Below, piece after piece: positions 3,156 through 19,001 of a DNA stretch of 64,000 bases. How positions within the stretch are numbered: position 1 is the first letter of the stretch; each line of letters starts with the position of its first letter. The stretch is from Prochlorococcus marinus XMU1419 (GTDB lineage Bacteria; Cyanobacteriota; Cyanobacteriia; PCC-6307; Cyanobiaceae), in NCBI RefSeq assembly GCF_017695955.1, contig NZ_JAAORO010000003.1:1-64000 (forward strand), in the 5' to 3' direction. The notes under the pieces were generated by a model, which did not search any database, had not been told where the DNA came from, and saw nothing but the letters and a program-made list of their open reading frames with translations. Made by a program: the position numbers and the translations under genes.

Positions 3156-3229
3156 CGGGGCGTGGCGCAGCTTGGTAGCGCGGGTGCTTTGGGAGCACTA
3201 GGTCGCAGGTTCGAATCCTGTCGCCCCGA
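3156..3229 (+). tRNA. tRNA-Pro (anticodon TGG), intact integration target
   Basis: This is a full cloverleaf of 74 nt. The acceptor stem CGGGGCG pairs with CGCCCCG, followed by discriminator A. The anticodon stem GGTGC/GCACT encloses the loop TTTGGGA with anticodon TGG. The T-arm is GCAGGTTCGAATCCTGT. CCA is not encoded. The 3' half from 3184 is repeated six more times downstream, so this gene is the attachment target of an element array. A hairpin with a T-run follows directly. Confidence 0.97.
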
Positions 3230-3251
3230 CTCTTAAAAACCAAGTCATACT

Positions 3252-4769: not shown

Positions 4770-4796
4770 GACGGGTTTCCCAGCCTGTCTTTTTTA
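4770..4796 (+). terminator. Terminator after att copy 1
   Basis: The stem GACGGG/CCTGTC encloses an 8-base loop and is followed by a run of six or more T. The position matches the terminator after the intact tRNA, but the stem sequence has changed. Confidence 0.65.
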
Positions 4797-4820
4797 TTGC
4801 CTTAAATATGACATATTCAT

Positions 4821-4845
4821 ATTTATGTCATATTTATGTCATATG
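4821..4845 (+). repeat. Element B left subterminal repeat
   Basis: Two tandem ATTTATGTCAT units plus ATG make a 25-bp block. It is repeated without change at 5612-5636, next to the other end. A partial inverted unit (ATATGACATAT) precedes it at about 4806. Confidence 0.65.
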
Positions 4846-4915
4846 CGTAAATTTTCGATAATTTGCGAATTTCTGCGTAGTTTTTCTTGGTTTAAAAAGT
4901 TAGATTAAAAATTTT

Positions 4916-5575
4916 CTAATAATAAGTTCTCCTTGGGATTATTCTCACCCAATAGTCCCATTTTCCATTGATTCTAGAATTACATCCCTTTAAAATCTCA
5001 TTGCGACCTTCATGATTACAAATTTCCTTTTTATTTCTTACATCAAAAGACCAACTGGGATGGGTAGATAGGTTTTTAGATTTTGCAGTAATCAAATTAT
5101 TCTCATCTCCTTTACAGTCTCTATTTAAGGGTATGAAGGAATACATCTTAAACTCTTTCTTAACATCAAACAAAGCTTCTTGATTTTTATTTTTCTTTGA
5201 ACATTCTTTAACTATGGCTTTTATAGTTTCTCTTGCATCTAGAGTTTCAAGGAAGCAGTCATATTTAGAGGGAGGGTTCTTTGGATCAGCATTTTTACAT
5301 ATTCTATTAACTTCTTTTGCTCTATCAATCATATTATTCGTGAAATTACTGGCATCCTCAGAATTATTTTTTTGCATATTGCCGTAATACTCTCTATTCC
5401 GTTTTATGTAATCTTCACATTCTGAATAACCGCTAAATTCTTGTCCAGCACAATCCCTCCAATACCCTGTAGGGATAATAAGAGGCAATAAAGCTCCAGC
5501 AACTGCTAAACCAAAAAAAGTTAAAAAACACCCTAATGGGGAAATACAGCCTTTTTTATTATCACTCTTTTCCAT
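4916..5575 (-). CDS. Membrane-anchored hypothetical protein, 219 aa
   Basis: The start is ATG at 5575 (the TTG one codon upstream is less likely). A short cytosolic head with two Cys (KKGCISPLGC) leads into one membrane helix, FLTFFGLAVAGALLPLIIP. A soluble region follows with at least eight Cys, which suggests disulfides outside the cytoplasm. I recognise no domain. It is the only gene of element B, transcribed towards the tRNA. Confidence 0.65.
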   Translation of the reverse strand: MEKSDNKKGCISPLGCFLTFFGLAVAGALLPLIIPTGYWRDCAGQEFSGYSECEDYIKRNREYYGNMQKNNSEDASNFTNNMIDRAKEVNRICKNADPKNPPSKYDCFLETLDARETIKAIVKECSKKNKNQEALFDVKKEFKMYSFIPLNRDCKGDENNLITAKSKNLSTHPSWSFDVRNKKEICNHEGRNEILKGCNSRINGKWDYWVRIIPRRTYY

Positions 5576-5611
5576 CAAAATAATTTTTTATCTAACCTAA
5601 TCAAAAATCAA

Positions 5612-5636
5612 ATTTATGTCATATTTATGTCATATG
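5612..5636 (+). repeat. Element B right subterminal repeat
   Basis: This block is identical over 25 bp, in the same orientation, to 4821-4845 at the other end of element B. Confidence 0.65.
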
Positions 5637-5723
5637 AGGGTTTATTTTTCAGGACAAAACACGCATAAATCAGCAATAAATAAGTTATAGCCAATAACAC
5701 GAGTGCTCATCTAGGGGTGTCCA

Positions 5724-5770
5724 GTGCTTTGGGAGCACTAGGTCGCAGGTTCGAATCCTGTCGCCCCGAC
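5724..5770 (+). repeat. att copy 2: tRNA-Pro 3' half
   Basis: These 47 bases are identical to the 3' half of tRNA-Pro. The next 20 or more bases (TCTTAAAAACCAAGTCATAC) also match the intact locus, including a related hairpin (5793-5817). Confidence 0.9.
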
Positions 5771-5792
5771 TCTTAAAAACCAAGTCATACTA

Positions 5793-5817
5793 GCGAGTTA
5801 CCCAGACTCACTTTTTT
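5793..5817 (+). terminator. Terminator-like hairpin after att copy 2
   Basis: GCGAGT and ACTCAC flank a short loop, followed by seven T. It is an imperfect relative of the tRNA-Pro terminator. Confidence 0.5.
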
Positions 5818-5828
5818 ATTGGAAAATC

Positions 5829-5860
5829 TGACGGCAGAGAATGCCGTCAAATTGCCGTCA
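5829..5860. repeat. Element C left subterminal repeats
   Basis: One inverted (TGACGGCA, 5829-5836) and two direct TGCCGTCA octamers (5842-5849, 5853-5860) are present; the direct pair is 11 bp apart. Confidence 0.6.
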
Positions 5861-6000
5861 ACCTAGTAGTTTTGAGACTATTAATTTACTTTTTCCTTGT
5901 AGATTATGTATATAGAGGCGATCTTCAAACGAAAAAACTACAATATCTAGCTAGAAGATTTATATTAAATAGAGCTTTTAGATAAAGTTTAAAAATAATA

Positions 6001-6231
6001 ATGAGATCTAATTTTCGCCCAAACATTCGATTAGCCATAAACATACTTTTAGTAATTGGAACATTTGCTATAGCTTTAAAGCTCTCTCCAATAGCAGAGG
6101 TCTATCAAGAGAAAAATCTTTGTATTAAATACTTAAAGCATCAAGTAGACCGAGAAACACTAATCAAAAGACTAAAAATAGTTAAGCAAGCAAATCCCTC
6201 TAGTATTTGTGACTCTATTCTTAAAAGTTAA
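6001..6231 (+). CDS. Small membrane protein with two Cys, 76 aa
   Basis: One N-terminal membrane helix (LAINILLVIGTFAIALKL) is followed by a basic soluble tail with two Cys (NLCIKYL...SSICDSIL). The start is ATG at 6001. It is the first gene of a tight same-strand group with MauE-like, DUF411 and DUF3721 genes, so a role in metal or thiol chemistry at the membrane is inferred. A frameshifted homologue lies at 33422. Confidence 0.65.
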   Translation: MRSNFRPNIRLAINILLVIGTFAIALKLSPIAEVYQEKNLCIKYLKHQVDRETLIKRLKIVKQANPSSICDSILKS

Positions 6232-6235
6232 AAAA

Positions 6236-6688
6236 ATGCAATTAAAGTCTCTTAAACCATTGATTGTAGTTTTTGGTACATCATTACTTATAACTATTAC
6301 CTTGATTAAAAACTTCCAAGTTTTTATGGGAATATCAATATGTCTTTTAGCGATGCTGAAGATTATGGATATTGAAGCTTTTGGTATAAGTTTTAAAAAA
6401 TATGATTTAATTTCTTCTCGGTTTAACCAGTGGATTTATATTTATCCTTTTTGCGAATTATTAATTGGTATTAGTTTTTTACTTTCTGCACCACCCTCTT
6501 CGGTCATTTTAATTGCTTTTATTCTAGGCATTATTGGAATGGCATCAGTATTCAAGGCAGTTTACTTAGATAAATTAAAATTAAATTGTGCATGCGTAGG
6601 TGGATATGCAAAAACCCCTTTAGGAATTATTAGTTTTATTGAAAATCTTTTAATGACAATCATGAGTGGTTTGATTCTACTTCGATAG
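6236..6688 (+). CDS. MauE/DoxX-like membrane protein
   Basis: I use ATG at 6236, five bases after the previous stop, giving 150 residues. Four hydrophobic segments are visible (for example LIVVFGTSLLITITL, PFCELLIGISFLLS, ILIAFILGIIGMASVF, IENLLMTIMSGLILL). A paired-Cys loop, LNCACVGGYAKTPLG, sits before the last helix. This is the pattern of MauE/DoxX redox-associated membrane proteins, which often accompany heavy-metal and disulfide systems. The adjacent DUF411 gene supports that. The partner is unknown. Confidence 0.7.
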   Translation: MQLKSLKPLIVVFGTSLLITITLIKNFQVFMGISICLLAMLKIMDIEAFGISFKKYDLISSRFNQWIYIYPFCELLIGISFLLSAPPSSVILIAFILGIIGMASVFKAVYLDKLKLNCACVGGYAKTPLGIISFIENLLMTIMSGLILLR

Positions 6689-6742
6689 CAAATTTATAAA
6701 AAATGAATTAATTTATTTTTAAAATCATAATTTCTAAAAAAA

Positions 6743-7261
6743 ATGGAATCTAATAAATCAATTTTTAAAAGGAGTTTGCTTAACTCACTTTTATTTTCTG
6801 GTATTCTCATCGTAAATTCATTTAATCCTCAAGAAAGCGCTGCTAAAAATCAAGAAAATATAAATATCCCTAAAGTCCTTTCTTATAGATCAGAATCATG
6901 CAGTTGTTGCAAGAAATGGGTAAATCATTTACGAGATAATGGATTAGAAGTTGTTGATAACATTGTTGAAAATATCTCAGAAATTAAACAACAATATAAT
7001 GTTCCCAATAATTTAAGATCCTGCCATTCTGCAAAAATAGGCAACTACACGATTGAAGGGCATGTTCCGATTGAATCAATTAACAAACTTTTTAAAGAGA
7101 AACCAATTATCTCTGGTATAGCCGTTCCTGGTATGCCGCATGGATCTCCTGGCATGGAAACACATTCTCATGAATCACACTCTCATAATTATGAAACTTA
7201 TAAAGTAGTTTCATTTAGTAATAATGGCAATACAAAAATATTCGACCAAATTTCACCCTAG
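6743..7261 (+). CDS. DUF411 family metal-binding protein
   Basis: The protein has 172 residues with an N-terminal hydrophobic signal/anchor. DUF411 follows with the signature SCSCCKKWVNHL, the motif LRSCHSAKIGNYTIEGHVP and PGMPHGSPGME. A His-rich tail (ETHSHESHSHN) could bind metal. DUF411 proteins are periplasmic and are repeatedly found with copper-resistance genes, so copper handling is the likely role. It sits third in the element C cassette and is missing from the second cassette at 33.4 kb. Confidence 0.85.
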   Translation: MESNKSIFKRSLLNSLLFSGILIVNSFNPQESAAKNQENINIPKVLSYRSESCSCCKKWVNHLRDNGLEVVDNIVENISEIKQQYNVPNNLRSCHSAKIGNYTIEGHVPIESINKLFKEKPIISGIAVPGMPHGSPGMETHSHESHSHNYETYKVVSFSNNGNTKIFDQISP

Positions 7262-7282
7262 ATAATATTGATCAATTAAATT

Positions 7283-7504
7283 ATGACTTTTGTTTTTAAG
7301 AAAATAAAAATACTCACTTTTTTATTTTTCATATTTATAAATTTGAATTTTTCTTCTTATGCCCATATGAAAGGTACATTTTCCACGAGGAAAGAAGCCA
7401 AAAAAAAATCATTAGAACTTGGTTGCGTTGGGACACATAAAAATCAAGATAAATGGCTTCCTTGTGAGAATGAAAAAGAATTACATAGATACCTAAGAAT
7501 GTAA
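7283..7504 (+). CDS. DUF3721 secreted small protein
   Basis: The protein has 73 residues: a signal peptide (ILTFLFFIFINLNFSSYA) and a DUF3721 domain with the conserved pattern GCVGTHKNQDKWLPC. The two Cys probably act as a pair or metal ligands outside the cytoplasm. The gene ends exactly where the next one starts (7505). A close paralogue lies at 33654 in the same gene order. Confidence 0.8.
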   Translation: MTFVFKKIKILTFLFFIFINLNFSSYAHMKGTFSTRKEAKKKSLELGCVGTHKNQDKWLPCENEKELHRYLRM

Positions 7505-7765
7505 ATGCAAAGAAAGAAAATTAACAAAAGAAAAATACATAGAAAAGTAGCTTCACTCTCTGCAATCCCCTTACTAATTACTCTTATATCTGGAACTGCT
7601 TATAGTATTCTTCAGCCATTAGGAGTAGATGCTTTTTGGTTAATAAAATGGCATACTGGCAATTTTGGTATTTTTAATTTACAGCCCTTTTATTCGATAT
7701 TTCTTGGTATTTCATCAATAATCTCTGTTATATCTGGAATTAAATTATTACAAAAAAATGCTTAG
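7505..7765 (+). CDS. PepSY-associated-type two-helix membrane protein
   Basis: The protein has 86 residues with a basic head (KINKRKIHRKVASLSAIP) and two membrane helices separated by WLIKWHTGNFG. This RKxHRK...WxxxWHTG layout resembles PepSY-associated membrane proteins, which carry haem- or metal-related His; that assignment is tentative. It follows DUF3721 with no gap. A close paralogue lies at 33876. Confidence 0.6.
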   Translation: MQRKKINKRKIHRKVASLSAIPLLITLISGTAYSILQPLGVDAFWLIKWHTGNFGIFNLQPFYSIFLGISSIISVISGIKLLQKNA

Positions 7766-7778
7766 AATTTTAAAAACA

Positions 7779-7797
7779 GCCGTCAATATGCCGTCAA
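7779..7797 (+). repeat. Element C right subterminal repeats
   Basis: Two GCCGTCAA units at 7779-7786 and 7790-7797, 11 bp apart, match the pair near the left end of element C. Confidence 0.6.
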
Positions 7798-7887
7798 ATG
7801 TTTCTCATATTGTCATGTCAAATTAAGCAATACCCCGCAACTATTTAGTCATGGCTTGTAGACATAGTATCCTACTAGGGTTGTTAA

Positions 7888-7933
7888 GTGCTTTGGGAGC
7901 ACTAGGTCGCAGGTTCGAATCCTGTCGCCCCGA
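7888..7933 (+). repeat. att copy 3: tRNA-Pro 3' half
   Basis: These 46 bases are identical to tRNA-Pro from the anticodon loop to the discriminator base. The sequence then diverges at once (TTGGAG), with no duplicated terminator. Confidence 0.9.
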
Positions 7934-7962
7934 TTGGAGTCTCAGCAATTAGATATTTTCTC

Positions 7963-8014
7963 TGTGTGTGATTTGTGTGTAATCACCTGTCTCACTAAAT
8001 TATTTTTTACACAC
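7963..8014. repeat. Element D left subterminal repeats
   Basis: TGTGTGTGATT (7963-7973) with a second TGTGTG unit follows the attachment site, and TTTTTACACAC lies at 8004-8014. Both recur beside the integrase promoter region at 14871-14895. Confidence 0.6.
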
Positions 8015-8367
8015 GACCTAATGTTTCGGCATTGAAATATAAGTGCACCTTAATTACTATTAGGTTATCGAATAGCTAGCACGGAATGTGCCGTGAATTA
8101 AATGAAAAGCTGCCAAGACTCATTTCTCTTGGTTTCCCACTTCGCCTATAAAAGCTAGCGTTCACCTGCGATACATTTTGTATCCGTCTTATTCTCTAAC
8201 TGCCGTCACGAAGTCTAGTTTTAATTAACAAGCGGGGTTGACCAACTTCTTGAAAAGCGGAAAAACAGTTTAGGCAAATTTTTATTTGTGCAAGGGAAAT
8301 ACCATTGTTTTATGGGGCTTGCTGATTGGGTCAGGAAAAATTTAAACCAATTTTTCTATGGGTACTC
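8015..8367. other. Element D left leader, non-coding
   Basis: No gene is visible here. There is a short CACGG/CCGTG inverted repeat (around 8081-8096) and an isolated TGCCGTCA octamer near 8203 like those of element C. The promoter of the rightward replication operon is expected here. Confidence 0.4.
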
Positions 8368-8664
8368 ATGTCACAAAATCACACTTGGCTAGAAATTCGG
8401 GAACTTGCCGAAGCACTTTATTGTTCTGTTAAATCTGTCTATATATATAGAGATAAAAATCTATTTAAGGCGGGCACTCATTACTACTCTGTAGGTGAGG
8501 GTAAATTGCGGGGTAAACATATATATAATTTAGAGCTCTGTAGAAAGGCTCTATTAGAACGTACTGCTAAAGATAGTCGTAGTAATGAAACCTATGACAA
8601 TAAAGAAATTAATAAGTTGATGACTAGAAAATTAGACAATAAAAATCTTAGTTATAGGAAGTAA
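8368..8664 (+). CDS. HTH DNA-binding protein (excisionase/regulator-like)
   Basis: I take ATG at 8368; a TTG at 8326 lacks support. The 98-residue protein has an N-terminal winged-helix-like segment, TWLEIRELAEALYCSVKSVY, followed by YRDKNLFKAGTHYYSVGEGK. This is the layout of excisionase/MerR-type small DNA-binding proteins with a basic wing. It heads the rightward operon of element D and may control replication or excision. The neighbour follows after five bases. Confidence 0.6.
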   Translation: MSQNHTWLEIRELAEALYCSVKSVYIYRDKNLFKAGTHYYSVGEGKLRGKHIYNLELCRKALLERTAKDSRSNETYDNKEINKLMTRKLDNKNLSYRK

Positions 8665-8669
8665 AAATA

Positions 8670-8954
8670 ATGAATACCGATCAATACAGGGCACTTATAG
8701 ATAGTGTCCTTATAGATATACGCCCCTACCTAAAATCTGAAGGCGAAATGATGCTTGGCTCTTTGTTAGCTCAAGTAATGGTCAAAAGTAATCTTGTTGC
8801 TCAAGAGCATATAGAGCTTGGTAATCGTTATAAGGAACTCACTCAGGCTTATGACGAGATGAAAAATCTGGTCTTTGAACTGTCAAAAAAACAGAAGGAT
8901 TTAAACGGATATTACTCAAAAAAATTTAACAACATTCAGAAAAAATTATCATGA
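8670..8954 (+). CDS. Coiled-coil hypothetical, 94 aa
   Basis: The sequence is rich in Glu/Lys heptads in its second half (LGNRYKELTQAYDEMKNLVF), with no membrane segment. It is probably a cytosolic coiled-coil protein of the satellite operon. It overlaps the next gene by four bases (ATGA), which suggests translational coupling. I recognise no family. Confidence 0.6.
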   Translation: MNTDQYRALIDSVLIDIRPYLKSEGEMMLGSLLAQVMVKSNLVAQEHIELGNRYKELTQAYDEMKNLVFELSKKQKDLNGYYSKKFNNIQKKLS

Positions 8955-9199
8955 AAAAAGCCCTGTCATGGGAACAGGGCTCTCTTATCTATGGATCTAA
9001 ATTAATTGTAGATTACAAGCCTATAGAGAGCTACTGTCCTGAGCTAATTCCACAAAATAAGACAAGAATCATTGTCTATGTCTGGGATTGTCGTATTCAA
9101 AAAGCGAAAAAACACAAATTAAGTTGGTTCTTAGATTCAACTATCGAATCAATGATTCATATAAGAAATCGCCTTAGTGCAGGGGGTAAAAATGGATGA
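8951..9199 (+). CDS. Hypothetical satellite protein, 82 aa
   Basis: A short basic protein beginning MKKALSWEQGSLIYGSKL with a conserved-looking core (RIIVYVWDCRIQKAKKHKL). It overlaps its neighbours on both sides (4 bases upstream, 8 bases into the ATPase gene), so the three genes are translationally coupled. The function is unknown. Confidence 0.6.
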   Translation: MKKALSWEQGSLIYGSKLIVDYKPIESYCPELIPQNKTRIIVYVWDCRIQKAKKHKLSWFLDSTIESMIHIRNRLSAGGKNG

Positions 9200-10487
9200 G
9201 TTCTACTTTGATATTGATGAACAACAGAGGTTAGACAATGAAAGATATATGGCTAGTAAAAGGGCTATCCAAGAAAGCACCAATACTGATGATCCATCTA
9301 GCTTTGGTTTTTCTGATTTATTAAATAATTTACTTCTAGCTATTGAATATCAAAAGCATGATGAAGAGATGACTTTAAGATCAATTATTAAAAGTCAATT
9401 CAAACTGCAAGATTCAAAATTAGATGCAAAATTATTTAATTTATTGATTGATAAATCTATCCCTAAAACTGAAACTACAGATGATTCTGTTGATCTTGAA
9501 ACTGTAGAACCTCTTACCTATTTAATGGATGGGTGGCTTTTAGAGGGAGATATATCTCTTAGTTATGGTTCTTATGGTTCTGGTAAAACAACCCATGCTT
9601 TATATAAGGCTATTAACTTCGCTAGAGGAACAAACATTTTAGATAGAGATACACCTTGTAAAAAAGGAAAGTCTCTATTTATATGTACTGATGGCGGTGT
9701 AAATACATTTAAAAAATCAATGTTTGATTTAGCCATTCCTGAAGATAGTCCTTTATTTAAAAAAGGTAAAAATAAGAAAATATTTGTATGGGGTTATGAA
9801 CAGAAACAGGGTCAAAAACCTTGGGCAGCAAATATAAATGGAATCGTTAAATTAAAGAGGTTTATTGAAAAAAATCAAATAAATTATGTGGTTATTGATA
9901 GTGCAAAAAGTGTTAGTTCCAGAGGTGGTTGGTCTTATATAGATAATGAATCAACTAGGCTGTTTTTACAGTATTTAAGGGAAATAATTGCACAACCTAA
10001 TAAGGCTCATATAGAGATTCTTAGCCATGATGGTACTGCTAAAGGTGCTCATGCAGGGGCTAAAAGTTGGGCGGAAGAGCCGTCAATGGTAATGCACCTG
10101 AAGGCAAAAAAAGATGAAGATACAAATGAAACTATCGGTGTTACTGCTGAATTTAAAAAGGATAGAGCAGCAACAATAGACCCTAGAAGAACCATTACAT
10201 ATAAATTAGTTGATGCTGAAATGGAGCTAATAGAACAGAGAGATATAGTCGGTAGCTGTGAAGATGTAATTATCGAAATTTTGGGTGATTTTTATAAAAT
10301 GGGAATCACTAGTGTAAGTAGAAAAGAGATTATAGATACTGCTTATAGGACTGCTTCAGCTAAACGTAAAACTGTTGATAATACTCTCGGAATAATGGTC
10401 AATAAAAGAAAACTTAAAAGGCTGCAAAAAGGTAAATATGGTTTAGTTGATAGCGAGATACAAAAGATAGAGAACAGTTCCCGATAA
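9192..10487 (+). CDS. RecA-fold AAA ATPase (RepA/AAA_25-like)
   Basis: The start is ATG at 9192, inside the end of the previous gene; the protein has 431 residues. The Walker A motif is SYGSYGSGKTTHAL (about residue 118-131), and Walker B lies in INYVVIDSAKS. A motif with conserved His follows (EILSHDGTAKGAHAGAKSW), as in hexameric RepA/DnaB-type helicases of plasmids and satellites. The C-terminal part looks like a winged helix (ISVSRKEIIDTAYRTAS-like). No primase domain is visible. It is likely the replication ATPase of element D. Confidence 0.8.
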   Translation: MDEFYFDIDEQQRLDNERYMASKRAIQESTNTDDPSSFGFSDLLNNLLLAIEYQKHDEEMTLRSIIKSQFKLQDSKLDAKLFNLLIDKSIPKTETTDDSVDLETVEPLTYLMDGWLLEGDISLSYGSYGSGKTTHALYKAINFARGTNILDRDTPCKKGKSLFICTDGGVNTFKKSMFDLAIPEDSPLFKKGKNKKIFVWGYEQKQGQKPWAANINGIVKLKRFIEKNQINYVVIDSAKSVSSRGGWSYIDNESTRLFLQYLREIIAQPNKAHIEILSHDGTAKGAHAGAKSWAEEPSMVMHLKAKKDEDTNETIGVTAEFKKDRAATIDPRRTITYKLVDAEMELIEQRDIVGSCEDVIIEILGDFYKMGITSVSRKEIIDTAYRTASAKRKTVDNTLGIMVNKRKLKRLQKGKYGLVDSEIQKIENSSR

Positions 10488-10671
10488 AAAACCTCGGGAA
10501 TAGGCAGATTACAGTCATAGACTTGTTTTTCCTATTCCCACTTCCCGACAGAGAGAAAGGGGTCTAATAATTTATTTTTTAGGGGTACATCTATATCTAA
10601 TGGGAAGGAATAGGACTATATCTATTGGTATGACTAACAAAACATGACTTCCCGACCATTTCCCTCGGGAA
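10478..10671. repeat. Inverted-repeat cluster, candidate origin or operator
   Basis: TTCCCGA-N9-TCGGGAA occurs twice, at 10478-10500 (overlapping the ATPase stop) and 10649-10671, with identical 9-base spacing. A lone TTCCCGA lies between them at 10542. Two palindromes and a half-site directly after a replication ATPase look like an initiator-binding origin or a repressor operator. Which one cannot be decided from sequence. Confidence 0.55.
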
Positions 10672-10684
10672 CTAAACTATATAT

Positions 10685-10933
10685 ATGGAGAAATTCACCC
10701 TGATAAATAAAGATAGATCCAGAATCAAGGTATTTGAACCATTTGAAGATGTATCTAAACCATCCCCTTCGATAGATGCAATGATGATTTCCTACGGATG
10801 CGTTTATAAACGATCAAGTAAACCAGTAATGAAAGGTAGCAGGGTAGAAACTGTTGAAGCTGCAAGAAAAGAATATGCAGAATTATTGAAAGAAGGTTGG
10901 AAGAAAACTTCTATATTTAATAGCTATTTTTAA
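10685..10933 (+). CDS. DUF1651 family protein, 82 aa
   Basis: A small soluble protein, MEKFTLINKDRSRIKVFEPF..., ending with the family-typical ARKEYAELLKEGWKKT segment (the Trp is near the C-terminus). DUF1651 is largely restricted to marine picocyanobacteria and has no known function. A nucleotide-similar relative lies at 32083 in the island, and more distant ones at 28139 and 44279. It sits alone between two non-coding blocks of element D. Confidence 0.75.
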   Translation: MEKFTLINKDRSRIKVFEPFEDVSKPSPSIDAMMISYGCVYKRSSKPVMKGSRVETVEAARKEYAELLKEGWKKTSIFNSYF

Positions 10934-10984
10934 TAGCCGATATTGTTCTTAGGGTTAGTTATATAAATAATCAAATTTAAAACA

Positions 10985-11175
10985 AGATTTGCAGGTAAAT
11001 TTAAAGGCTTTAAAAGTAGTAAAGCCATGCCCTGAGTTACGTTAAATCCTGTTTTCTTCAAGAATCGTCAACCCCTATGTGACACTTTTTTAGAGGCATT
11101 TAAGCCAAAATAACACGCATTTTTAGAGGAATAAAGGAATCTAAGACTTACTTAAGAAGTTATAGAGAGATATAA
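10985..11175. repeat. Satellite non-coding block, copy 1
   Basis: About 190 bases upstream of the capsid gene align with 26965-27150 in the island. Exact shared words are AATCGTCAACCC, AAGCCAAAATAACACGCATT and TTACTTAAGAAGTT, in the same order and with similar spacing. Neither copy is coding. It could be a promoter, a packaging site or an origin. Confidence 0.6.
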
Positions 11176-11236
11176 GAAAAAACCTTAATTTTGGTCAAAA
11201 AAACAGGGTGTATAAAGCTAGTAGTCGCAATCACTT

Positions 11237-12862
11237 ATGAAGAAAGTACTAGACAAAAAACTAGTTCACAGATTTGTAGATTTGATTGATGAGACATCTG
11301 ACTCCCAGACCGATCAACTAACTTTTAGTTTTTCTTCTGAGACTCCTGTTAATCGAGGTCATTACTCAGAAGTATTAGACCATGACGTTAACTCTGTTGA
11401 TCTATCAAGACTTAGAAATTCTGCACCTTTCTTGTTTAACCATGATATGAACAAACCCATTGGGCGAGTTGTTAATGCGTGGATAGAAGACAGAAAAGGT
11501 CGAGCCACTATCGAGTGGGGAACTAGCGATTTAGCCCAACAACTACGCAAAGATACTGAAATCGGTGTTTTGCGAAATATCAGCGTTGGTTACACAGTTG
11601 AAAAAACTGAAGAAGACGAAGACGGAAACATGAGAGCCGTTATCTGGCAGCCTCATGAATTGTCATTAGTGACAGTTCCCGCAGATACAAACGTAGGAAT
11701 AGACAGAAGTTTATTACCGCCAACAAGTAAACCTTTAAACGAAAGAATTATGCCTGAGCATCAAATCAATTCTGCTGACTACTTATATGAGTCAAAACCT
11801 GATGAGTACGAAAGAGCAGCTAAAGACTTTTCAATAGTAAAAGCAATGCAAGCATCTGTTTCTGGTAACTGGTCAGAAGCAGGTAAAGAAAGAGAAATCC
11901 AACAGGAATTAAGCCACAGAAACGGCAGAACTTCTCAAGGTATCTTTGTTCCTCATGAGAACTGGAAAACTAGAGATTACGTCAAAGGCACAGCTTCAGC
12001 AGGTGGAAACTTAGTCGCCACTATGCAAATGCCCGATAACTTTGTAGATGTTCTTAGAGCTAAGTCAGTAGCACTTGAATTAGGTGCAACAGTTTTGCCT
12101 GGACTAATTGGTGATGTTTCTATTCCTACTAGAACAGCAGGGGCAACAGCTTATTTCGTAGCTGAATCTGGCTCGGTTACTGAATCAACAGGAACATTCG
12201 GAACTATCTCAATGTCTCCAAAAGTAATGGGTGCATATTCTAAGTTCAGTCACTTAATGAAGTTGCAAGCTACCCCAGAAATAGAAGGATTAATTAGAGA
12301 TGACTTTATTTCTACACTTGCTACAAAACTAGATTCAGTTGCACTTAATGGTGGTGGTTCTAATGAACCTGATGGCATCCTACAAACTACAGGTATCGGC
12401 TCTGTAGCTATAGGAACTAATGGTGGAGCGATCACACTTGATAAGGTTTTAGACCTTAAGCAAACAGTCGCAGTCGATAATGCTGACGTTGCTAATTGTG
12501 CTTTCGTTACTAACACCGCTGTAGAAAATGCATTGAGCAAACTTAAAGACGGCAATAGTGCATATCACTTAAATCCTTATGCGGGTGCAGTAGGTGAACA
12601 GCAACTAGCTAATAGAAGTTTTATGGTTACAAACAACGTGCCATCAAACCTAACTAAAGGCTCATCAAGTGGTGTTTGTTCTGCAATGATCTATGGAAAC
12701 TTTAGTGACTTATTAATAGGAATCTTTGGTGAAGTAGAAATCCTTGTTGATCCTTATTCAGCAATGCAAACAGGTGTTACAGCAGTAAGAATCCTACAAG
12801 CTGTAGATATAAAGGTTCGTCATGCTGAATCATTTGGAGCTATCCAAGACATAACCACATAA
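11237..12862 (+). CDS. Prohead protease-major capsid protein fusion (HK97 fold)
   Basis: The protein has 541 residues. Residues 25-160 form an HK97-type prohead protease (U35/S78): FLFNHDMNKPIGRV holds the catalytic His (69), RNISVGY the Ser (116), and WQPHELSLVTVPAD closes the domain. A linker of about 60 residues follows. The HK97 capsid domain starts near 225 (TASAGGNLVATMQMPDNFVD) and ends with DIKVRHAESFGAI. Encoding its own capsid is typical of capsid-forming satellites and some tycheposons. No portal or terminase is nearby, so assembly must rely on a helper. Confidence 0.9.
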   Translation: MKKVLDKKLVHRFVDLIDETSDSQTDQLTFSFSSETPVNRGHYSEVLDHDVNSVDLSRLRNSAPFLFNHDMNKPIGRVVNAWIEDRKGRATIEWGTSDLAQQLRKDTEIGVLRNISVGYTVEKTEEDEDGNMRAVIWQPHELSLVTVPADTNVGIDRSLLPPTSKPLNERIMPEHQINSADYLYESKPDEYERAAKDFSIVKAMQASVSGNWSEAGKEREIQQELSHRNGRTSQGIFVPHENWKTRDYVKGTASAGGNLVATMQMPDNFVDVLRAKSVALELGATVLPGLIGDVSIPTRTAGATAYFVAESGSVTESTGTFGTISMSPKVMGAYSKFSHLMKLQATPEIEGLIRDDFISTLATKLDSVALNGGGSNEPDGILQTTGIGSVAIGTNGGAITLDKVLDLKQTVAVDNADVANCAFVTNTAVENALSKLKDGNSAYHLNPYAGAVGEQQLANRSFMVTNNVPSNLTKGSSSGVCSAMIYGNFSDLLIGIFGEVEILVDPYSAMQTGVTAVRILQAVDIKVRHAESFGAIQDITT

Positions 12863-12989
12863 GTATTAGAGGGTAGTTAGTTAAGGGTATAAGTTTGGGT
12901 CGATCCTTATATCCTCTGTTGTGCGTAACACCAACACTCCATAGTTGTTTCTTTACTGACTTTCTACCCTCGACCCTATACTTATTAAT

Positions 12990-13037
12990 GATTGACAGTC
13001 GATCTACATTAGAGGGAATTAACCACCCTCTTTTTTT
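12990..13037 (+). terminator. GAGGG/CCCTC terminator, copy 1
   Basis: ATTGACAGTCGATCTACATT precedes an AGAGGG...CCCTCT hairpin and seven T. The ATG of the next gene follows the T-run directly. Related units lie at 23119 and, inverted, at 25568. Confidence 0.65.
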
Positions 13038-13295
13038 ATGGATAGATATGTAAGTGTTAAAGAAGCAGCAGAACTTTTATGTATGTCTCAATCGTTATTG
13101 TGGGAACTAAAAAACCATAAGGAATTAGTAGCAGGCGATCATTGGTTATATGTGACAGGCAAACTAAAAAGTAAAGTCCTGTTTAATGTAGATGCTATTA
13201 GACAATGGCAGATTGATAAGACAAAAGAAATTGAAAATACACCTGACGATATAGCAGCAAAAAAGATAGCAACCTATCGAGATATGACGGCATAG
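13038..13295 (+). CDS. HTH DNA-binding protein, 85 aa
   Basis: MDRYVSVKEAAELLCMSQSL is an AlpA/excisionase-type helix-turn-helix. A wing (DHWLYVTGKLKSKVLFNVDAI) and a charged tail follow. It starts immediately after a terminator-like hairpin, so its translation may be sensitive to that structure. It lies between the capsid gene and the integrase module, and could be a regulator or a small-terminase-like packaging factor; the former is more likely. Confidence 0.65.
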   Translation: MDRYVSVKEAAELLCMSQSLLWELKNHKELVAGDHWLYVTGKLKSKVLFNVDAIRQWQIDKTKEIENTPDDIAAKKIATYRDMTA

Positions 13296-13397
13296 GTTCT
13301 TTCTAGGCATACTGCTGTGGGTCGTTCATACGCTCTTTTTTTGTCTAGCGTCTGCGATATATGAACTTAGACAGCGTATAAGTCGATTTAGGCGAGA

Positions 13398-13649
13398 TTA
13401 GTGTGAATTAGCGAGTTCTATGTATTTCTTAAGGTCATAATCGTTAATCGGTATCCAGTTGTTAGAAGTCAGATTTTTTTGAATATGTTTAGCAAGAGTT
13501 ACACCCCTAATTTTTCCCATAAAAAGGTATTTTTGGTCATTTATTTGTCTTATATAAGGATCAAGTATGCCTTTATCTCTAAGTTGATATATCGAAGCTC
13601 TAGATTTAAAGCCTAAACACTTATAAGCCTCTGTAAAAGTGCAGTACAT
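13398..13649 (-). CDS. Excisionase-like HTH protein, 83 aa
   Basis: MYCTFTEAYKCLGFKSRASI reads as a MerR/excisionase helix-turn-helix, followed by a strand pair (RQINDQKYLFMGKIRGVT). It starts two bases after the integrase stop and is transcribed with it, the usual place for a recombination directionality factor. The function is inferred from size, fold pattern and position. Confidence 0.65.
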   Translation of the reverse strand: MYCTFTEAYKCLGFKSRASIYQLRDKGILDPYIRQINDQKYLFMGKIRGVTLAKHIQKNLTSNNWIPINDYDLKKYIELANSH

Positions 13650-13651
13650 AG

Positions 13652-14842
13652 TTAACTTACCTTTACTGTTTCTTGGTCAAAGTTCTTAGCAAGTTCCTTA
13701 GTCATAAATCTGGAATAAGAACTCAAGTGAACATCTAAAGAATGACCCATAGCATCAGCTATTTGTTTAGGTGCTCTATAAGTACCATCATCTTTTTGTC
13801 TGTTATGACCGACATAAGCATATCTATGTCTAAAACTGTAAGGAGTTAGCTGTTGTCTTTCATCTTCTGCTTCTTTTTTTAGTTGTTGCCATACTTTGTT
13901 ATCTCTAAGGAATCGACCTACAGCCTGACCTGCACCGCCCTTGTCATTAATCGTTGGTAATTCTTCTTTTATATGGATTTTTTTCATTAAATTCCAATTA
14001 TTTTTGCTTCCATCTATATCTTCTACAAATAAAGGAAATAACTGTCTTGGTTGTGTTGTTAAACCTTTTTTACCGCCCTGAGATTTACGATAATCAGACC
14101 ATAATTCATTACCATTATTTCTTGTATGAAGGTGTTTTAGATCGTTTGGTCTAAGTCCATAAGTAGCCATAAGTTGTAGAGCAAACTTCCATCTGGGATT
14201 CTTTACTGAATCAACTAATCTAAGAATCTGACTATCTGACAATGGATAACCTATACGCTTAGTAGTTGTAACTGCTTCATCATCTGACATTACAGGCGGT
14301 AGCCATTTAGAAGGGAAGTCCTGTCTTTGGACTACATAATTTAAAAAGCTATTTAGAGCTATTCTCATATGCCTTCTTTGAGTAGTGCCCTTAGTCCATT
14401 TAGATAAAGCAAGATTAGATAATTCTTCTGCGTTCTTTGGTTTCTTTTTTTTGTTCAATAAAGTCAATGCAATATGTAAAACAGGTAAATGCTTAGACTT
14501 CCAAGTTTTTTCAGAAACATTAGTTTTAAATGATCTATAGCTGTTTAAAGCATCAGGCCAATCAAGTTCCAGAATTGAACTAGCACTAGATGAAATTGCA
14601 TAGGCTGTTTTTAAATCAATTTTTCCTTTTGATTCTGTAAATATCTGATTAATAGTTGTAATCCTGTTTAGGGCATCTATCCAAGTATCTTCTGACCATT
14701 TATAAGCAGTAGATAAAGTTTCTTCATTTGGTCTTTTCCCAACTTGTAGCCTTACGATTCCTCTGGAGTTGTAAACAGTCCAGTTTTTACCGCATTTACT
14801 CTTTAGTGCTGTTCTAAAGTTGCTAATCCATTTTTCTGACAT
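13652..14842 (-). CDS. Tyrosine recombinase (tycheposon integrase)
   Basis: The protein has 396 residues. A core-binding helical domain (about 80-180) is followed by the catalytic domain. The key residues are Arg231 (MATYGLRPNDLKHL), Arg338-His339 (TPYSFRHRYAYVGH), His367 (MGHSLDVHL) and the nucleophile Tyr376 (SSYSRF). The first His of the usual HxxR box is Tyr here. It reads from the right end of element D inward, with a paired excisionase-like gene. It is the only recombinase in the window. Confidence 0.9.
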   Translation of the reverse strand: MSEKWISNFRTALKSKCGKNWTVYNSRGIVRLQVGKRPNEETLSTAYKWSEDTWIDALNRITTINQIFTESKGKIDLKTAYAISSSASSILELDWPDALNSYRSFKTNVSEKTWKSKHLPVLHIALTLLNKKKKPKNAEELSNLALSKWTKGTTQRRHMRIALNSFLNYVVQRQDFPSKWLPPVMSDDEAVTTTKRIGYPLSDSQILRLVDSVKNPRWKFALQLMATYGLRPNDLKHLHTRNNGNELWSDYRKSQGGKKGLTTQPRQLFPLFVEDIDGSKNNWNLMKKIHIKEELPTINDKGGAGQAVGRFLRDNKVWQQLKKEAEDERQQLTPYSFRHRYAYVGHNRQKDDGTYRAPKQIADAMGHSLDVHLSSYSRFMTKELAKNFDQETVKVS

Positions 14843-14870
14843 AAGACACTAGTGCTATATATGACTTAAA

Positions 14871-14895
14871 TTTTTACACACAAATGTGTGTGATT
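14871..14895. repeat. Element D right subterminal repeats
   Basis: TTTTTACACAC (14871-14881) and TGTGTGTGATT (14885-14895) match the two repeats at the left end of element D. They lie upstream of the integrase start, so they may also control its promoter. Confidence 0.6.
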
Positions 14896-14996
14896 CAATT
14901 ACGAACCATTCTCTTACGTACATCTACAGAGTCTCATATTCAATCTATAGCTTCAGTTATAGCTTAAATCCCTTAGTCTCACTAACTACACACTAT

Positions 14997-15041
14997 TGCT
15001 TTGGGAGCACTAGGTCGTAGGTTCGAATCCTGTCGCCCCGA
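14997..15041 (+). repeat. att copy 4: tRNA-Pro 3' half, one mismatch
   Basis: 45 bases match the tRNA except GTAGG in place of GCAGG in the T-stem. It marks the border between the satellite (D) and the transporter element (E). Confidence 0.88.
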
Positions 15042-15071
15042 TTAACTTCTCACCATTCTTAAATACTCTCT

Positions 15072-15110
15072 GGGCGATCATTTGCTATACCTTGCTGCAT
15101 TTTGCGTTTT
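15072..15110 (+). repeat. Element E left subterminal repeat
   Basis: GGGCGATCATT followed by TTGCT and a T-rich stretch matches 19150-19188 imperfectly in the same orientation; the first 11 bases are identical. Confidence 0.5.
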
Positions 15111-15229
15111 GGCTCACTCTTGATGGAGATTAAATTTGCACAGCAAATCTGTAATAAATGGCTACTAGCTCTATTTTCATAAAAAACACCTCTGCTTATT
15201 TAAATTTAAATAGTTTTTTTATAAATGGA

Positions 15230-15970
15230 TCAGTTGATTTGATTTAGAAACTTTCTACTCCTTTCATGTCTAGCGTTTGAAAAGAAAATTTCTGGAGAAG
15301 AGATTTCTAAAATCTTTCCTGAATCTATAAATAAAACCTGATCGCTTACTTCCTTAGCAAATTTAATTTCATGTGTTACCACAATCATAGTCATACCTTG
15401 ATCAGCTAGCCTTCTCATTGCATCAAGCACTTCATTAATACGCTCTGGATCCAATGCACTAGTGGGTTCATCAAATAATAATAATTCAGGTTTTAAGGCT
15501 AAAGATCGTGCAATAGCAACTCGTTGTTGTTCTCCACCACTAAGTTGACCAGGGTACTTTTTTGCATGAGATTCTATTCCCATTTGACAAAGTAAATACA
15601 TCCCATACTCTTCTGCTTCTTGTTTATTACGTTTTTGAACCTGAATCGGAGCAAGTGTTATATTTTCTAAAATTGATAAATGGGGAAACAAATTAAATTG
15701 CTGGAAAACCATCCCAACTCTACGTCTAATTTTTTGAATTTTTCTTTCGTCTGAATCTGCCCTAATTTTTATACCTAAAACATTTAATTCACCTTTATCA
15801 AAAGTTTCAAGACCATTAATGGTCCTAATAAGTGTGCTCTTCCCTGATCCCGATGGACCCATAATTACGAGAACCTTGCCTTGATCCAGGGTAAATGAAA
15901 CTTTATTAAGAGCAAGAATACCTTTAGCATATGATTTGGTGAGATTTTTAGCGGTAAGTATTGGCTTCAT
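15230..15970 (-). CDS. aapP: Polar amino-acid ABC transporter ATPase
   Basis: The protein has 246 residues, the normal length for a PAAT-family ATPase. Walker A is GPSGSGKST (about residue 38), the Q-loop lies in VFQQFNLFPHL, the signature is LSGGEQQRVAIARSLA and Walker B is LLLFDEPTSALDP, followed by VVTHEI. It powers import of amino acids through the two permeases just upstream. It is the last gene of the aapJQMP-type operon, ten bases after aapM. The symbol is by homology to the general L-amino-acid system; NatH/GlnQ-type names would also fit. Confidence 0.88.
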   Translation of the reverse strand: MKPILTAKNLTKSYAKGILALNKVSFTLDQGKVLVIMGPSGSGKSTLIRTINGLETFDKGELNVLGIKIRADSDERKIQKIRRRVGMVFQQFNLFPHLSILENITLAPIQVQKRNKQEAEEYGMYLLCQMGIESHAKKYPGQLSGGEQQRVAIARSLALKPELLLFDEPTSALDPERINEVLDAMRRLADQGMTMIVVTHEIKFAKEVSDQVLFIDSGKILEISSPEIFFSNARHERSRKFLNQIN

Positions 15971-15980
15971 AGATATAAGA

Positions 15981-17024
15981 TTAATATCCTTTATTAATTG
16001 TCATTTTTTGCTCAAGTTTTTTTGAAACAAAAGCCATAATTGTGCAAAAAAGCCAATAGACGGAAGCTAACCAAATATATACTTCAATATATTGTCCTAT
16101 GAATTCTGGATTGGCAAGAATACTCCTACTTACACCAAGTAATTCCATTAAACCTAAGATAGACATTAAAGATGTATTTTGAAAAAGCCCAATTAACTGG
16201 TTTGTAATAGCTGGCAATGCAACTCTTAAGGCTTGTGGAATAAGAATGTATATATTTATTTGATATTTGTTTAAGCCAAGACTTTTAGCAGCTTCTATCT
16301 GATTTTTAGGTATCGACTGTAATCCTCCTTTAATATCTTCAGCTATATATGCTGAGACAAAAAAAGTAAAAGCTATTACAGCCCTCCAGACACGATCTAT
16401 TTCTAAACCGACAGGTAAAAATAAAGGTATTAACAATTGTCCAAAAAAAAGTACAGAGATAAGAGGAACAGCTCTCATTACATCAATATAAAAAGAACTT
16501 GACTTCTGAATTAAAAATATTGAACTTCTTCTGCAAAGAGCTAATAAAATACCAATTGGTAAAGAGAAAAGAATACTACAAGAAGTTATAAGAATTGTTA
16601 GGGTTAATCCACCCCAATGACGTGTCATTACTGGATTTAAACCCAAACCCCCATAAAGCAAATAAATTCCTAATGGTACTGTTCCAATCCATCCAAAAAT
16701 TAAATTTTTACGAATCCAATTCCATTTAGGCCCATAAATTGTAATAAATGTAATAGATAAAAGAATGAAGAACCAAAGAATAGGTCTCCATTGCTGATCG
16801 ATTGGAAAGCTCCCAAATACATATAAATTAAGATTTGATGTTACGACTTCCCAATTAAAATTTATAAATATCGAAGTTAAAATTTTAAAAATTAAAAAAA
16901 TTGAAATCAGAAAAAATATAAAATTGCAGAAATTATATTTTGATTTTGCTAATAAAGAATTTTTAATTTTTTTAAATAAATTTGGATTTAAATTTGGATT
17001 TAAATTTGGATTTATATTATTCAT
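15981..17024 (-). CDS. aapM: Amino-acid ABC permease (AapM-like)
   Basis: The protein has 347 residues, with about eight hydrophobic segments. The binding-protein-dependent permease EAA motif reads IEAAKSLGLNKYQINIYILIPQALR. The long N-terminal extension before the permease domain is typical of the AapM/NatH branch. The N-terminus carries three tandem NPNL units encoded by a perfect 12-base repeat (about 16980-17015). It forms the channel with AapQ in the inner membrane. Confidence 0.85.
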   Translation of the reverse strand: MNNINPNLNPNLNPNLFKKIKNSLLAKSKYNFCNFIFFLISIFLIFKILTSIFINFNWEVVTSNLNLYVFGSFPIDQQWRPILWFFILLSITFITIYGPKWNWIRKNLIFGWIGTVPLGIYLLYGGLGLNPVMTRHWGGLTLTILITSCSILFSLPIGILLALCRRSSIFLIQKSSSFYIDVMRAVPLISVLFFGQLLIPLFLPVGLEIDRVWRAVIAFTFFVSAYIAEDIKGGLQSIPKNQIEAAKSLGLNKYQINIYILIPQALRVALPAITNQLIGLFQNTSLMSILGLMELLGVSRSILANPEFIGQYIEVYIWLASVYWLFCTIMAFVSKKLEQKMTINKGY

Positions 17025-17031
17025 TAATAAG

Positions 17032-17925
17032 TTATATCCTTGTTTTCATTATTGATTTATCGATGAATCCCATTATTTTTGTTATTACTAAATTAAGGAT
17101 TAAAAAACTGCAAAGTAAAATTATAAAACACTCTACAGCTCTTCCCGTTTGGTTGATGATCGTGTCATTTATTGCATAAATATCTGCATAGCCTATAGCT
17201 ATTGCAAGTGTGCTATTTTTTGCAAGATTTAGATATTGACTCGTAAGTCCTGGAATAAAAGCTGGTAATGCTTGAGGTATTATTATTTTAATAAATCCTT
17301 GTTTTTCGGAAATACCTAAACTTCGAAAAGCTTCCCATTGACCTATGGGAACAGACTGAATTCCACCTCGAATTACTTCTGCAATAAATGCGCTTGAAAA
17401 TATACTTAAACCAAATAATAATGCTGAAAACTCTGAAGATAAATTAAGTCCAAATAACTCTATCCCTTTATTGGAAATGTTAATTCTATTACTTAAATTC
17501 AAAAAAGAATTATTTCTTATACTCAGAAATCCAACAAAATACCAACACATAAGTTGAATTAAAAGTGGAGTCTGCCTAATAAATGTGATATATCCAGCCG
17601 TAATAATTCTAAAAAATGAATTTTTACCTACTCTCAAAAAACCTATTAACGTTCCAATACAAGATGCTAAAACAAGAGATGAAATAATAACTTTCAAGCT
17701 ATTCATCCATCCCATAAAAAGGGCCCAAGCATAACTGTCCGAAGGACTATAGGGCAAGGGATGTTCTGCCAAAGAAAAGCTTGCAGGCTTTGTTAACCAA
17801 TTAAAATTGAATCCTATGCCTGTTCTTGTAAGATTCATTATTAAATTATTAGTTAATATCCCTAAAAAACCAAGAACGGCCAACATCAAAAGAATCTGAA
17901 AAAATATTTTTTTATTTTTACTCAT
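17032..17925 (-). CDS. aapQ: Amino-acid ABC permease (AapQ-like)
   Basis: The protein has 297 residues. It begins with one helix (FFQILLMLAVLGFLGILTNNL) and a periplasmic loop, then the permease core with the EAA loop WEAFRSLGISEKQGFIKIIIPQALP. It is the heterodimer partner of the next gene (7 bases apart). It is shorter than many AapQ proteins, but both the loop and the helices are complete. Confidence 0.85.
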   Translation of the reverse strand: MSKNKKIFFQILLMLAVLGFLGILTNNLIMNLTRTGIGFNFNWLTKPASFSLAEHPLPYSPSDSYAWALFMGWMNSLKVIISSLVLASCIGTLIGFLRVGKNSFFRIITAGYITFIRQTPLLIQLMCWYFVGFLSIRNNSFLNLSNRINISNKGIELFGLNLSSEFSALLFGLSIFSSAFIAEVIRGGIQSVPIGQWEAFRSLGISEKQGFIKIIIPQALPAFIPGLTSQYLNLAKNSTLAIAIGYADIYAINDTIINQTGRAVECFIILLCSFLILNLVITKIMGFIDKSIMKTRI

Positions 17926-17951
17926 TCTTAAATATAATTTATAATTTGCAA

Positions 17952-19001
17952 TTAATTAAATGGTGGAGAGATATGTAAACCACCTTTACTGTAAATTTCG
18001 TTCAATCCTCTTGGGATAGGGACATCACTATCTATCCCAAGATTTCTATCATAAATTTCACCATAATTTCCAGTAGCTTTTATAACATTAACAACGAAAT
18101 CATTTCTTAATCCGATTTTTTCTCCTAAACCTCCATCAACTCCAAGAAATCTTCTTAATGATTTTAATTGTGGATTATTTTCTGCAAGTTGAACCTTATC
18201 AGCAATATTTGATTGAGTTATACCTTGCTCCTCAGCAGCCATCAAAGCAAAAACTGTCCATCTCATAGCATCGGCAAGTTTCTGTTCAGACCCATCTGAT
18301 GCAGGTGCTAAAGGCTCCTTACTTAAAACATCATCAAGAATAATATGATCTTTTGCATTCTTAAAACCTGATCTAGCTGCTGCCAATTGAGATCGATCAG
18401 AGGTCATCGCTTGACATCTACCTTGTAGATATCCTGCGACTACCTGGTTAAGATCTTGATATTTAATTGGGATATAGGGAAGCGAAAGACTTTCAAAAGT
18501 GTCATTAATATTTTGCTCAGTAGTTGTTCCTGAACCTACACATATAGACTTATTAGCGAGATCTTGAATACTTTCAATACCGCTATTTTTTTTAACCATT
18601 AACCCTTGCCCATCATGAAAAACTACAGGGGCGAAAGTTAACCCGTTCCCTCCAAAAGAATCTCTACTAAGAGTTAAAGTAGTGTTCCTTGACAACAAAT
18701 CAATATCTCCTGTTTTAATAGCTAAAAATCTTTCAGCAGCAGTTAGAGGTCTAAACTGAATTTTTTCTGAATCTCCTATTATTGCTGCAGCAAAGGCTTT
18801 ACATATATCTACGTCTAATCCTTTATAACTACCGTCTCCTTCAATAAAGCTAAAACCTGGGATTTTTCCGCTTACCCCGCAAATTAATTCATCTCTTTTT
18901 TGTATAAGGGATAGCCTAGAAATATTATCGTTTTGATTGCTAGCACAACCAGTTAAAAGAAGACCAAAAGCAGCAATTCCAAAGAATAATCTTTTCATCA
19001 T
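17952..19001 (-). CDS. aapJ: General amino-acid ABC substrate-binding lipoprotein
   Basis: The protein has 349 residues. It begins with a lipoprotein signal (MMKRLFFGIAAFGLLLTGC, lipobox LLTGC). The solute-binding fold is recognisable from PGFSFIEGDGSYKGLDVDIC and FRPLTAAERFLAIKTGDIDLL. NTTLTLSRD and GTTTEQNINDTF are close to AapJ/NatF proteins. It captures amino acids in the periplasm. It is the first gene of the operon; the promoter lies in 19002-19150. Confidence 0.88.
   Translation of the reverse strand: MMKRLFFGIAAFGLLLTGCASNQNDNISRLSLIQKRDELICGVSGKIPGFSFIEGDGSYKGLDVDICKAFAAAIIGDSEKIQFRPLTAAERFLAIKTGDIDLLSRNTTLTLSRDSFGGNGLTFAPVVFHDGQGLMVKKNSGIESIQDLANKSICVGSGTTTEQNINDTFESLSLPYIPIKYQDLNQVVAGYLQGRCQAMTSDRSQLAAARSGFKNAKDHIILDDVLSKEPLAPASDGSEQKLADAMRWTVFALMAAEEQGITQSNIADKVQLAENNPQLKSLRRFLGVDGGLGEKIGLRNDFVVNVIKATGNYGEIYDRNLGIDSDVPIPRGLNEIYSKGGLHISPPFN

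Follow-up and report, generated by a model that had tools for sequence, protein, structure and literature searches.

How might a mobile element of about 7 kb be packaged if it encodes a capsid but no recognised portal or terminase? The question is raised by element D, which lies in a 64-kb window (the whole stretch of DNA that was analysed) of the genome of Prochlorococcus marinus XMU1419 (1.64 Mb, three contigs). The integrated element occupies 7.1 kb, from 7889 to 15041, and is bounded by two 45-bp copies of the 3′ part of a tRNA-Pro gene. The original prediction described a capsid-encoding phage satellite with a replication ATPase, a protease–capsid fusion, regulators and an integrase, lacking portal, terminase, tail and lysis genes. 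We found that the coordinates and genes hold. Ten open reading frames (ORFs) were scanned against Pfam and PHROG, and none matched a terminase, portal, connector, tail or lysis family. The ORF at 11237–12862 matches Peptidase_S78 (E = 8.3e-7), Phage_capsid (1.3e-41) and the PHROG major head protein (3.1e-108). When the small and large terminase subunits (TerS and TerL), gp02 and portal of phages S-CBS3 and S-LBS1 were searched against the whole window by tblastn, the best E-value was 0.15, outside D, whereas the capsid protein gave a match at 2e-50. The reading of D as a satellite is well supported by sequence comparison, as set out below.

D is not a chance assembly, because its layout recurs in other genomes. 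Of 197 related genomes, 14 have the capsid gene; the genome of the window is one of these, and some are distant cyanobacteria with phage-like loci. Within the genus it was found in 25 of 266 genomes, again counting the window's own, with 16 full-length copies, three partial or broken copies and six short fragments. The carriers include Prochlorococcus marinus MIT 9302 (locus L102) and many single-cell genomes. The usual gene order in the relatives is a helix-turn-helix (HTH) protein, a long-helix protein, one or two small proteins, the ATPase, the capsid gene, an HTH protein, cargo and the integrase. D departs from this order in that one of its HTH proteins, HTHa, is placed after the capsid gene. 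The capsid gene is reversed and accompanied by additional cargo in E83 and L112, and L101 and L097 have a helicase of another kind. Twelve distinct capsid elements bounded by tRNA sequences, D among them, measure 6829–8703 bp (mean 7708, coefficient of variation 8%); the remaining tRNA-bounded intervals at the same loci measure 0.8–5.7 kb. Two capsid elements stand in tandem in AG-388-A01 (L099). The ratio of nonsynonymous to synonymous substitution rates (dN/dS) of the capsid gene is 0.08–0.25 for unsaturated pairs, showing purifying selection. Divided by part, ten pairs gave 0.06–0.41 for the protease, 0.05–0.38 for the linker and 0.08–0.13 for the capsid.

The closest named phage capsids are about 30–34% identical to the satellite capsid. 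The same protease–capsid fusion family occurs in the cyanosiphophages S-CBS1, S-CBS3 and S-LBS1 and in the Roseobacter phages CRP-406 and CRP-823, all of them complete phages that, unlike D, encode terminase, portal and tail. In these five phages and in R4C, the order is TerL, one or two small genes, portal and capsid. The portal gene is followed by the capsid gene in the Persinger region, and only TerL is named at these places in VP882. Among 64 IMG/VR loci recruited by the capsid gene, 53 have TerL or portal by tblastn with the S-CBS3 and S-LBS1 proteins, most of the remaining 11 being short or distant. By contrast, tblastn with TerS, TerL, gp02 and portal of these two phages found nothing in any of the 26 Prochlorococcus-type loci, L116 included, seven of which are second copies of loci already counted. 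A capsid tree of 41 rows was built after the removal of duplicate loci and near-identical phage contigs. In this tree, a branch supported at 100/98 and recovered in 100% of 200 bootstrap trees separates the 20 satellite capsids from the other rows. Within the satellites, the earliest branch is L111 (Synechococcus sp. CCY 9618), followed by L117 (IMG/VR, 60% GC) and then by L116 with the Prochlorococcus forms. The sister group of the satellite capsids is uncertain, since several of the phage rows are long branches.

The satellite protein differs from the phage proteins in the region that joins protease to capsid. The distance from the protease Glu motif to the first conserved capsid block is 155–222 aa in phages (55 rows), 135 aa in L111 and 86–97 aa in the satellites (26 rows, 19 distinct), with 88 aa in L117. 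The conserved stretch of the phage linker is approximately ERxRVxxIxxLC ... LAxxLIxxGxSxxEAxxxVL, and we judged it by eye to be helical. A linker profile, into which 13 phage rows first went, found 55 of the 56 phage rows at E < 1e-3 and none of the 30 satellite rows. The phage rows form 14 groups at 90% identity and include the cyanobacterial chromosome loci L092, L093 and L096, the last without a protease part; the satellite rows L090, L113 and L114 are incomplete. A held-out profile made from seven rows of other lineages found 48 of 49 phage rows (E about 1e-11 for the six inspected) and, at 1e-3, again none of the 30 satellite rows. When the other ORFs of the satellite loci were searched with the linker profile, nothing beyond chance was seen. 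The protein encoded at 8670 was tried as the missing module supplied in trans and was rejected (hhalign probability 0.2, hmmsearch E about 8).

According to the accessible text of PMC8569155, the scaffold of HK97-type heads is built into the capsid protein as its N-terminal (delta) part. Thus, the module missing from the satellites sits at the place expected for a scaffold. Taken with the small spread of element lengths (mean 7.7 kb), this absence would favour a smaller shell. Scaling by volume from phages of 30–35 kb, for which a triangulation number (T) of 7 was assumed, gives 8.5–9.7 kb for T = 3 and 13–15 kb for T = 4.

If the shell is self-encoded, what would direct a helper's motor to the satellite DNA? 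Among the satellites, a TerS profile grown from S-LBS1 detected full TerS genes only in L111 and L117, in each case adjoining the capsid gene. Both proteins are called terminase small subunit by PHROGs and are related to the TerS of S-LBS1, which also matched, and neither locus gave a TerL or portal match with the S-CBS3 and S-LBS1 queries. The TerS genes of L111 and L117 tie the family, independently of the capsid, to a packaging motor of the S-LBS1 type. The TerS-profile search also returned 19 weak hits (E = 0.006–10), of which 13 rows, from eight distinct loci, are members of the family of the small HTH protein at 13398, which we call HTHb. Conversely, beyond its own family the HTHb profile matches the L111 TerS best (54 residues, E = 1.2e-5), and other HTH proteins score 0.003 or more. 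In hhalign against TerS, the HTHb family scores 84.6 and HTHa 34.7. HTHb is present in 15 of the 18 full-length satellites that lack TerS and in two partial loci. These comparisons suggest that HTHb derives from TerS. The PHROG scans beyond D covered 20 ORFs from the loci of six relatives together with the HTH and TerS sets. Apart from TerS, they gave no head, tail or lysis match in these ORFs, tail and lysis not having been searched in every relative, and the HTHb of L086 weakly matched terminase-small families (E = 0.036–0.45).

The original prediction had named all of the small genes as candidates for redirecting functions and had singled out those at 8670, 8951 and 13038 for structure prediction. 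The predicted structure of the 8670 protein (pLDDT 92) consists of helices 3–20 and 24–93. Structure searches with 8670 in BFVD and PDB and with 8951 in PDB gave no match (best E-values 1.4, 3.4 and 3.9), and hhalign found nothing for 8670 as a TerS. The 13038 protein, HTHa, looks more like an excisionase or regulator and is not favoured as a TerS on the hhalign scores above. The better TerS-like candidate among the small genes is 13398.

The Pfam portal family was found in none of the 266 genus genomes, although 4 of the 14 control genomes gave a match. No match to S-CBS3 TerL was found in the 266 either, in a search made without a positive control. A resident helper is therefore unlikely, and an infecting phage is more likely. 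Among 50,697 phage records, none shares DNA with D except for tRNA-Pro. The IMG/VR contig L116 (8725 bp) has an exact terminal repeat of 99 bp and one tRNA-Pro piece adjoining the integrase, as expected for an excised circle or head-to-tail copies.

We regard it as probable, with some reserve, that D is a helper-dependent satellite with its own self-maturing shell, which borrows the portal, TerL and tail of an S-CBS-like siphovirus. D would be integrated at tRNA-Pro through its own tyrosine recombinase. Upon infection by a siphovirus resembling S-CBS or S-LBS1, it would excise and replicate with its own ATPase. It would then produce its own shell, which the fused protease would mature. Simple scaling suggests T = 3 to T = 4 for this shell, which would thus be smaller than that of the helper. 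Portal, TerL and tail would come from the helper. In the Synechococcus-type forms, TerS would direct packaging to the satellite DNA. In the Prochlorococcus forms, this role may fall to HTHb, as a small TerS-like DNA-binding protein, or to a cos site shared with the helper.

Instead, the satellite capsid protein could join the helper's shell and make it smaller or different, as does Ccm of SaPIbov5; we consider this unlikely, although it deserves serious attention. D has a single capsid gene and no recognised portal or TerL. However, the D gene retains a constrained protease part of its own, with the three protease motifs present in 27 of 27 covering rows. Furthermore, the best known phage capsids are only about 30–34% identical to it, though the true helper may be unsampled. 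As far as the accessible text of PMC8569155 goes, SaPIbov5 is a precedent for a satellite with a capsid homologue and a helper portal, but its authors assumed that the helper protease cleaves Ccm, unlike the arrangement in D with its own protease. The capsid protein might also poison the assembly of infecting phages and so protect the host, with the element transferred by vesicles or ordinary transduction, which we consider improbable. Capsid-based interference is known in general, no packaging genes were recognised in D, and no resident helper was found in the genus genomes. Against this, packaging of the element's own DNA is indicated by the narrow element size, by the retained fused protease and by the TerS gene that L111 and L117 have adjacent to the capsid gene.

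We think it similarly improbable that helper heads of ordinary size take up D as a concatemer while its capsid gene acts in some other step. PICMI puts eight copies in a normal head, according to the available portion of PMC10803314, and a head of 30–35 kb would be filled by four to five copies of 7–8 kb. This explanation leaves the dedicated, constrained capsid gene and the missing linker module unaccounted for. We give very little credence to the view that the capsid gene is left over from a degraded prophage. The gene is of phage descent, and in some genomes there are decayed copies with stop codons. However, the layout is repeated in many genomes, the satellite capsids form one clade under purifying selection, and no packaging gene was found in the 26 loci. 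The original prediction named, as the finding that would overturn it, a sole prophage relic with similar phages in the same gene order. What is seen instead is TerL–portal–capsid in the phages and the satellite layout in the relatives, and D itself shows neither packaging genes in phage order nor decay of the remaining gene.

Several observations weigh against our preferred reading of D as a satellite with its own shell. Strongly diverged portal or terminase genes may escape the searches used here. In one pair, E86–E87, the constraint on the protease part is weaker (dN/dS 0.41). At the looser threshold of E < 0.05, the held-out linker profile reaches 2 of the 30 satellite rows (best 0.018). 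D's own HTHb is not among the weak matches of the TerS profile, and 3 of the 18 full-length TerS-less satellites (E83, L112 and L099b) have no HTHb. HTHb against HTHa also scores 79.6 in hhalign, and the L086 member of HTHb matches excisionase/regulator families (phrog_66, E = 1.7e-4). Because of this resemblance to HTHa and to excisionases, the origin of HTHb from TerS is put forward here as a suggestion. L116 and L117 are IMG/VR contigs of unspecified sample fraction, and such contigs are no proof of encapsidation. Since D shares no DNA with phages except tRNA-Pro, no cos site was found, and the true helper may be unsampled. We infer the helper, the particle and the packaging site of D, and likewise we infer that loss of the linker module makes the shells smaller, with a small T number.

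How does D compare with known satellites? In the papers compared, as far as they could be consulted, satellites either use the head of the helper or encode a full set of head and packaging proteins themselves. D resembles the cf-PICIs in having its own HK97-type major capsid protein and head maturation protease. In the available text of PMC10690885, however, the cf-PICIs also have genes for portal, connectors, both terminase subunits and HNH, and tails are all that they still need. The contrast drawn in the original prediction with capsid-forming satellites elsewhere is borne out by this description. D and its relatives have no recognised portal or TerL, and TerS occurs only in L111 and L117; connectors were checked in D only. 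The Streptomyces phage satellites MulchRoom and MiniFlayer likewise have their own capsids and use virulent helpers, but differ from D in carrying both terminase subunits, a portal and a scaffold and in having no obvious replicase (PMC10690885, same portion). The cos-type SaPIbov5 is like D in combining a satellite capsid homologue with helper portal and tail, and its Ccm acts at the pentamers of the phi12 shell, mixing with the helper capsid protein, in what is accessible of PMC8569155. The D gene differs from Ccm in including its own protease, in being distant from known phage capsids and in lacking the linker module. PICMI of Vibrio, also a small marine satellite, has genes for integration, regulation and replication as D does, but it has no capsid remodelling gene described in the consulted part of PMC10803314 and sends concatemers into normal helper heads.

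The class to which D belongs may well have been reported already, and we claim only a variant. Some tycheposons are reportedly viral satellites (Hackl et al. 2023, Cell). D shares with tycheposons integration at a tRNA gene in Prochlorococcus and a tyrosine recombinase, and also a size above 4 kb; tycheposons are described second-hand in PMC10872708. No capsid-only Prochlorococcus satellite appears in the titles and abstract openings of the searchable literature, outside which the key tycheposon papers (Hackl 2023; Eppley 2022) lie.

The features of D and its borders are collected in Table 1.

Table 1. Features of element D and of its integration site (window coordinates).
Position	Strand	Feature	Basis or remark
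3156..3230	+	tRNA-Pro (TGG), intact; target site of the tandem array	ARAGORN; Rfam tRNA
7889..7933	+	Left tRNA-Pro 3′ repeat, attL-like, 45 bp	
8284..8326	+	43-nt block upstream of the first gene; candidate control or packaging site	
8326..8664	+	HTH-like regulator	Weak HTH_17, E 0.065, below curated cut-off
8670..8954	+	Long-helix protein with SKR.EKLE-like motif at its end	Family across satellites; predicted structure
8951..9199	+	Small protein, in a subset of satellites	Predicted structure, pLDDT 68
9177..10487	+	AAA_25 ATPase, probably a replication helicase; likely start codon ATG at 9192	Pfam E 4.9e-11
10685..10933	+	DUF1651-like gene, probably cargo	E 0.0012, under cut-off
11237..12862	+	Fused S78 protease–HK97 capsid gene, 541 aa, without phage linker module	Pfam, PHROG
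13038..13295	+	HTHa, HTH protein resembling excisionases/regulators; gene placed first in most relatives	Weak HTH_17, below curated cut-off
13398..13649	-	HTHb, small HTH protein; family resembles DNA-binding part of TerS	Weak HTH_17, below curated cut-off
13652..14842	-	Tyrosine recombinase (integrase)	Family alignment; no Pfam match; weak PHROG integrase, 0.0047
14997..15041	+	Right tRNA-Pro 3′ repeat, attR-like, 45 bp	

The 43-nt block is nearly identical in the satellites L086, L087 and L088, whose capsids are about 50% identical to that of D, and it also occurs in L165, an element of G057, a genome that has no capsid match. It was found in 4 of the 266 genus genomes, and its 33-base core has no exact match in IMG/VR. 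The first ORF, given with a TTG start at 8326, may begin at the ATG at 8368 instead. In the recombinase, R231, R338, H367 and Y376 are invariant across ten aligned sequences including that of D, and they presumably belong to the catalytic set. A version of the satellite core with a large serine recombinase in place of the tyrosine recombinase is seen at L085 and at L102 (MIT 9302), and AG-347-B23 is a carrier as well as MIT 9302; the integration module has been swapped. A scan of IMG/VR gave no relatives of the satellite ATPase. The L084 ATPase (L084:7805-9097) matches the phage family phrog_30286 (function unassigned) at 1.4e-67, which implies that a close relative is present in some deposited virus.

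Other observations were made on the relatives of D. A counterpart of the DUF1651-like gene, 93% identical, sits in a neighbouring element of L084. Beside the integrase of L084 there is a 250-aa protein (11882-12637), with relatives in E85, E86, E88, E89 and L112; its match to NAD-dependent DNA ligase is confined to the adenylation domain (Pfam 8.5e-24; PHROG ligase 2.3e-33). The satellite-like cluster of L111 (3708-12673) comprises a Prim-Pol/D5 primase, an HTH protein, TerS, the protease–capsid gene and a serine recombinase. Capsid gene fragments are seen in L091 (genome G018) and as short matches in six genus genomes, most with stop codons, which suggests that satellite elements also decay in place.

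Around D, the intact gene is followed by copies of the 3′ part of tRNA-Pro. Four of them share a core (at 4721, 5741, 7905 and 15013), and the copy at 19304 is imperfect. These tandem copies indicate that several elements are stacked one after another. Before D, at 3231–7888, are three smaller intervals bounded by tRNA repeats (1.5, 1.0 and 2.2 kb) in tandem, without an integrase-like ORF. Their genes include a TPR-like one, one of 220 aa and a set of cargo genes, among which a protein with a CSCC motif was recognised by eye. These intervals might be mobilised by the recombinase of D. Downstream, the interval of 4.3 kb at 15042–19304 closes with the imperfect sixth tRNA repeat, and its genes resemble, by eye, an amino-acid ABC transporter.

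What would these elements mean for the biology of their hosts? We propose, tentatively, that in marine picocyanobacteria they may form a satellite class of their own, which can be called "shell-only". A single gene would build and mature a dedicated small shell after loss of the scaffold module, a siphovirus would supply portal, motor and tail, and a TerS reduced to its DNA-binding domain would redirect the motor. Since the cultured Prochlorococcus marinus MIT 9302 has a member (L102), a bench test is possible. If the proposal is true, the series from L111 (TerS, 135 aa) through L117 (TerS, 88 aa) to L116 and the Prochlorococcus forms (no TerS, 86–97 aa; HTHb in 15 of 18) would record the loss of packaging genes from a capsid-forming satellite. 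The consistently absent protease–capsid module is a natural experiment on how head size is set in HK97-type phages. The family would also show that the shell is separable from the portal and motor, in a highly abundant photosynthetic organism.

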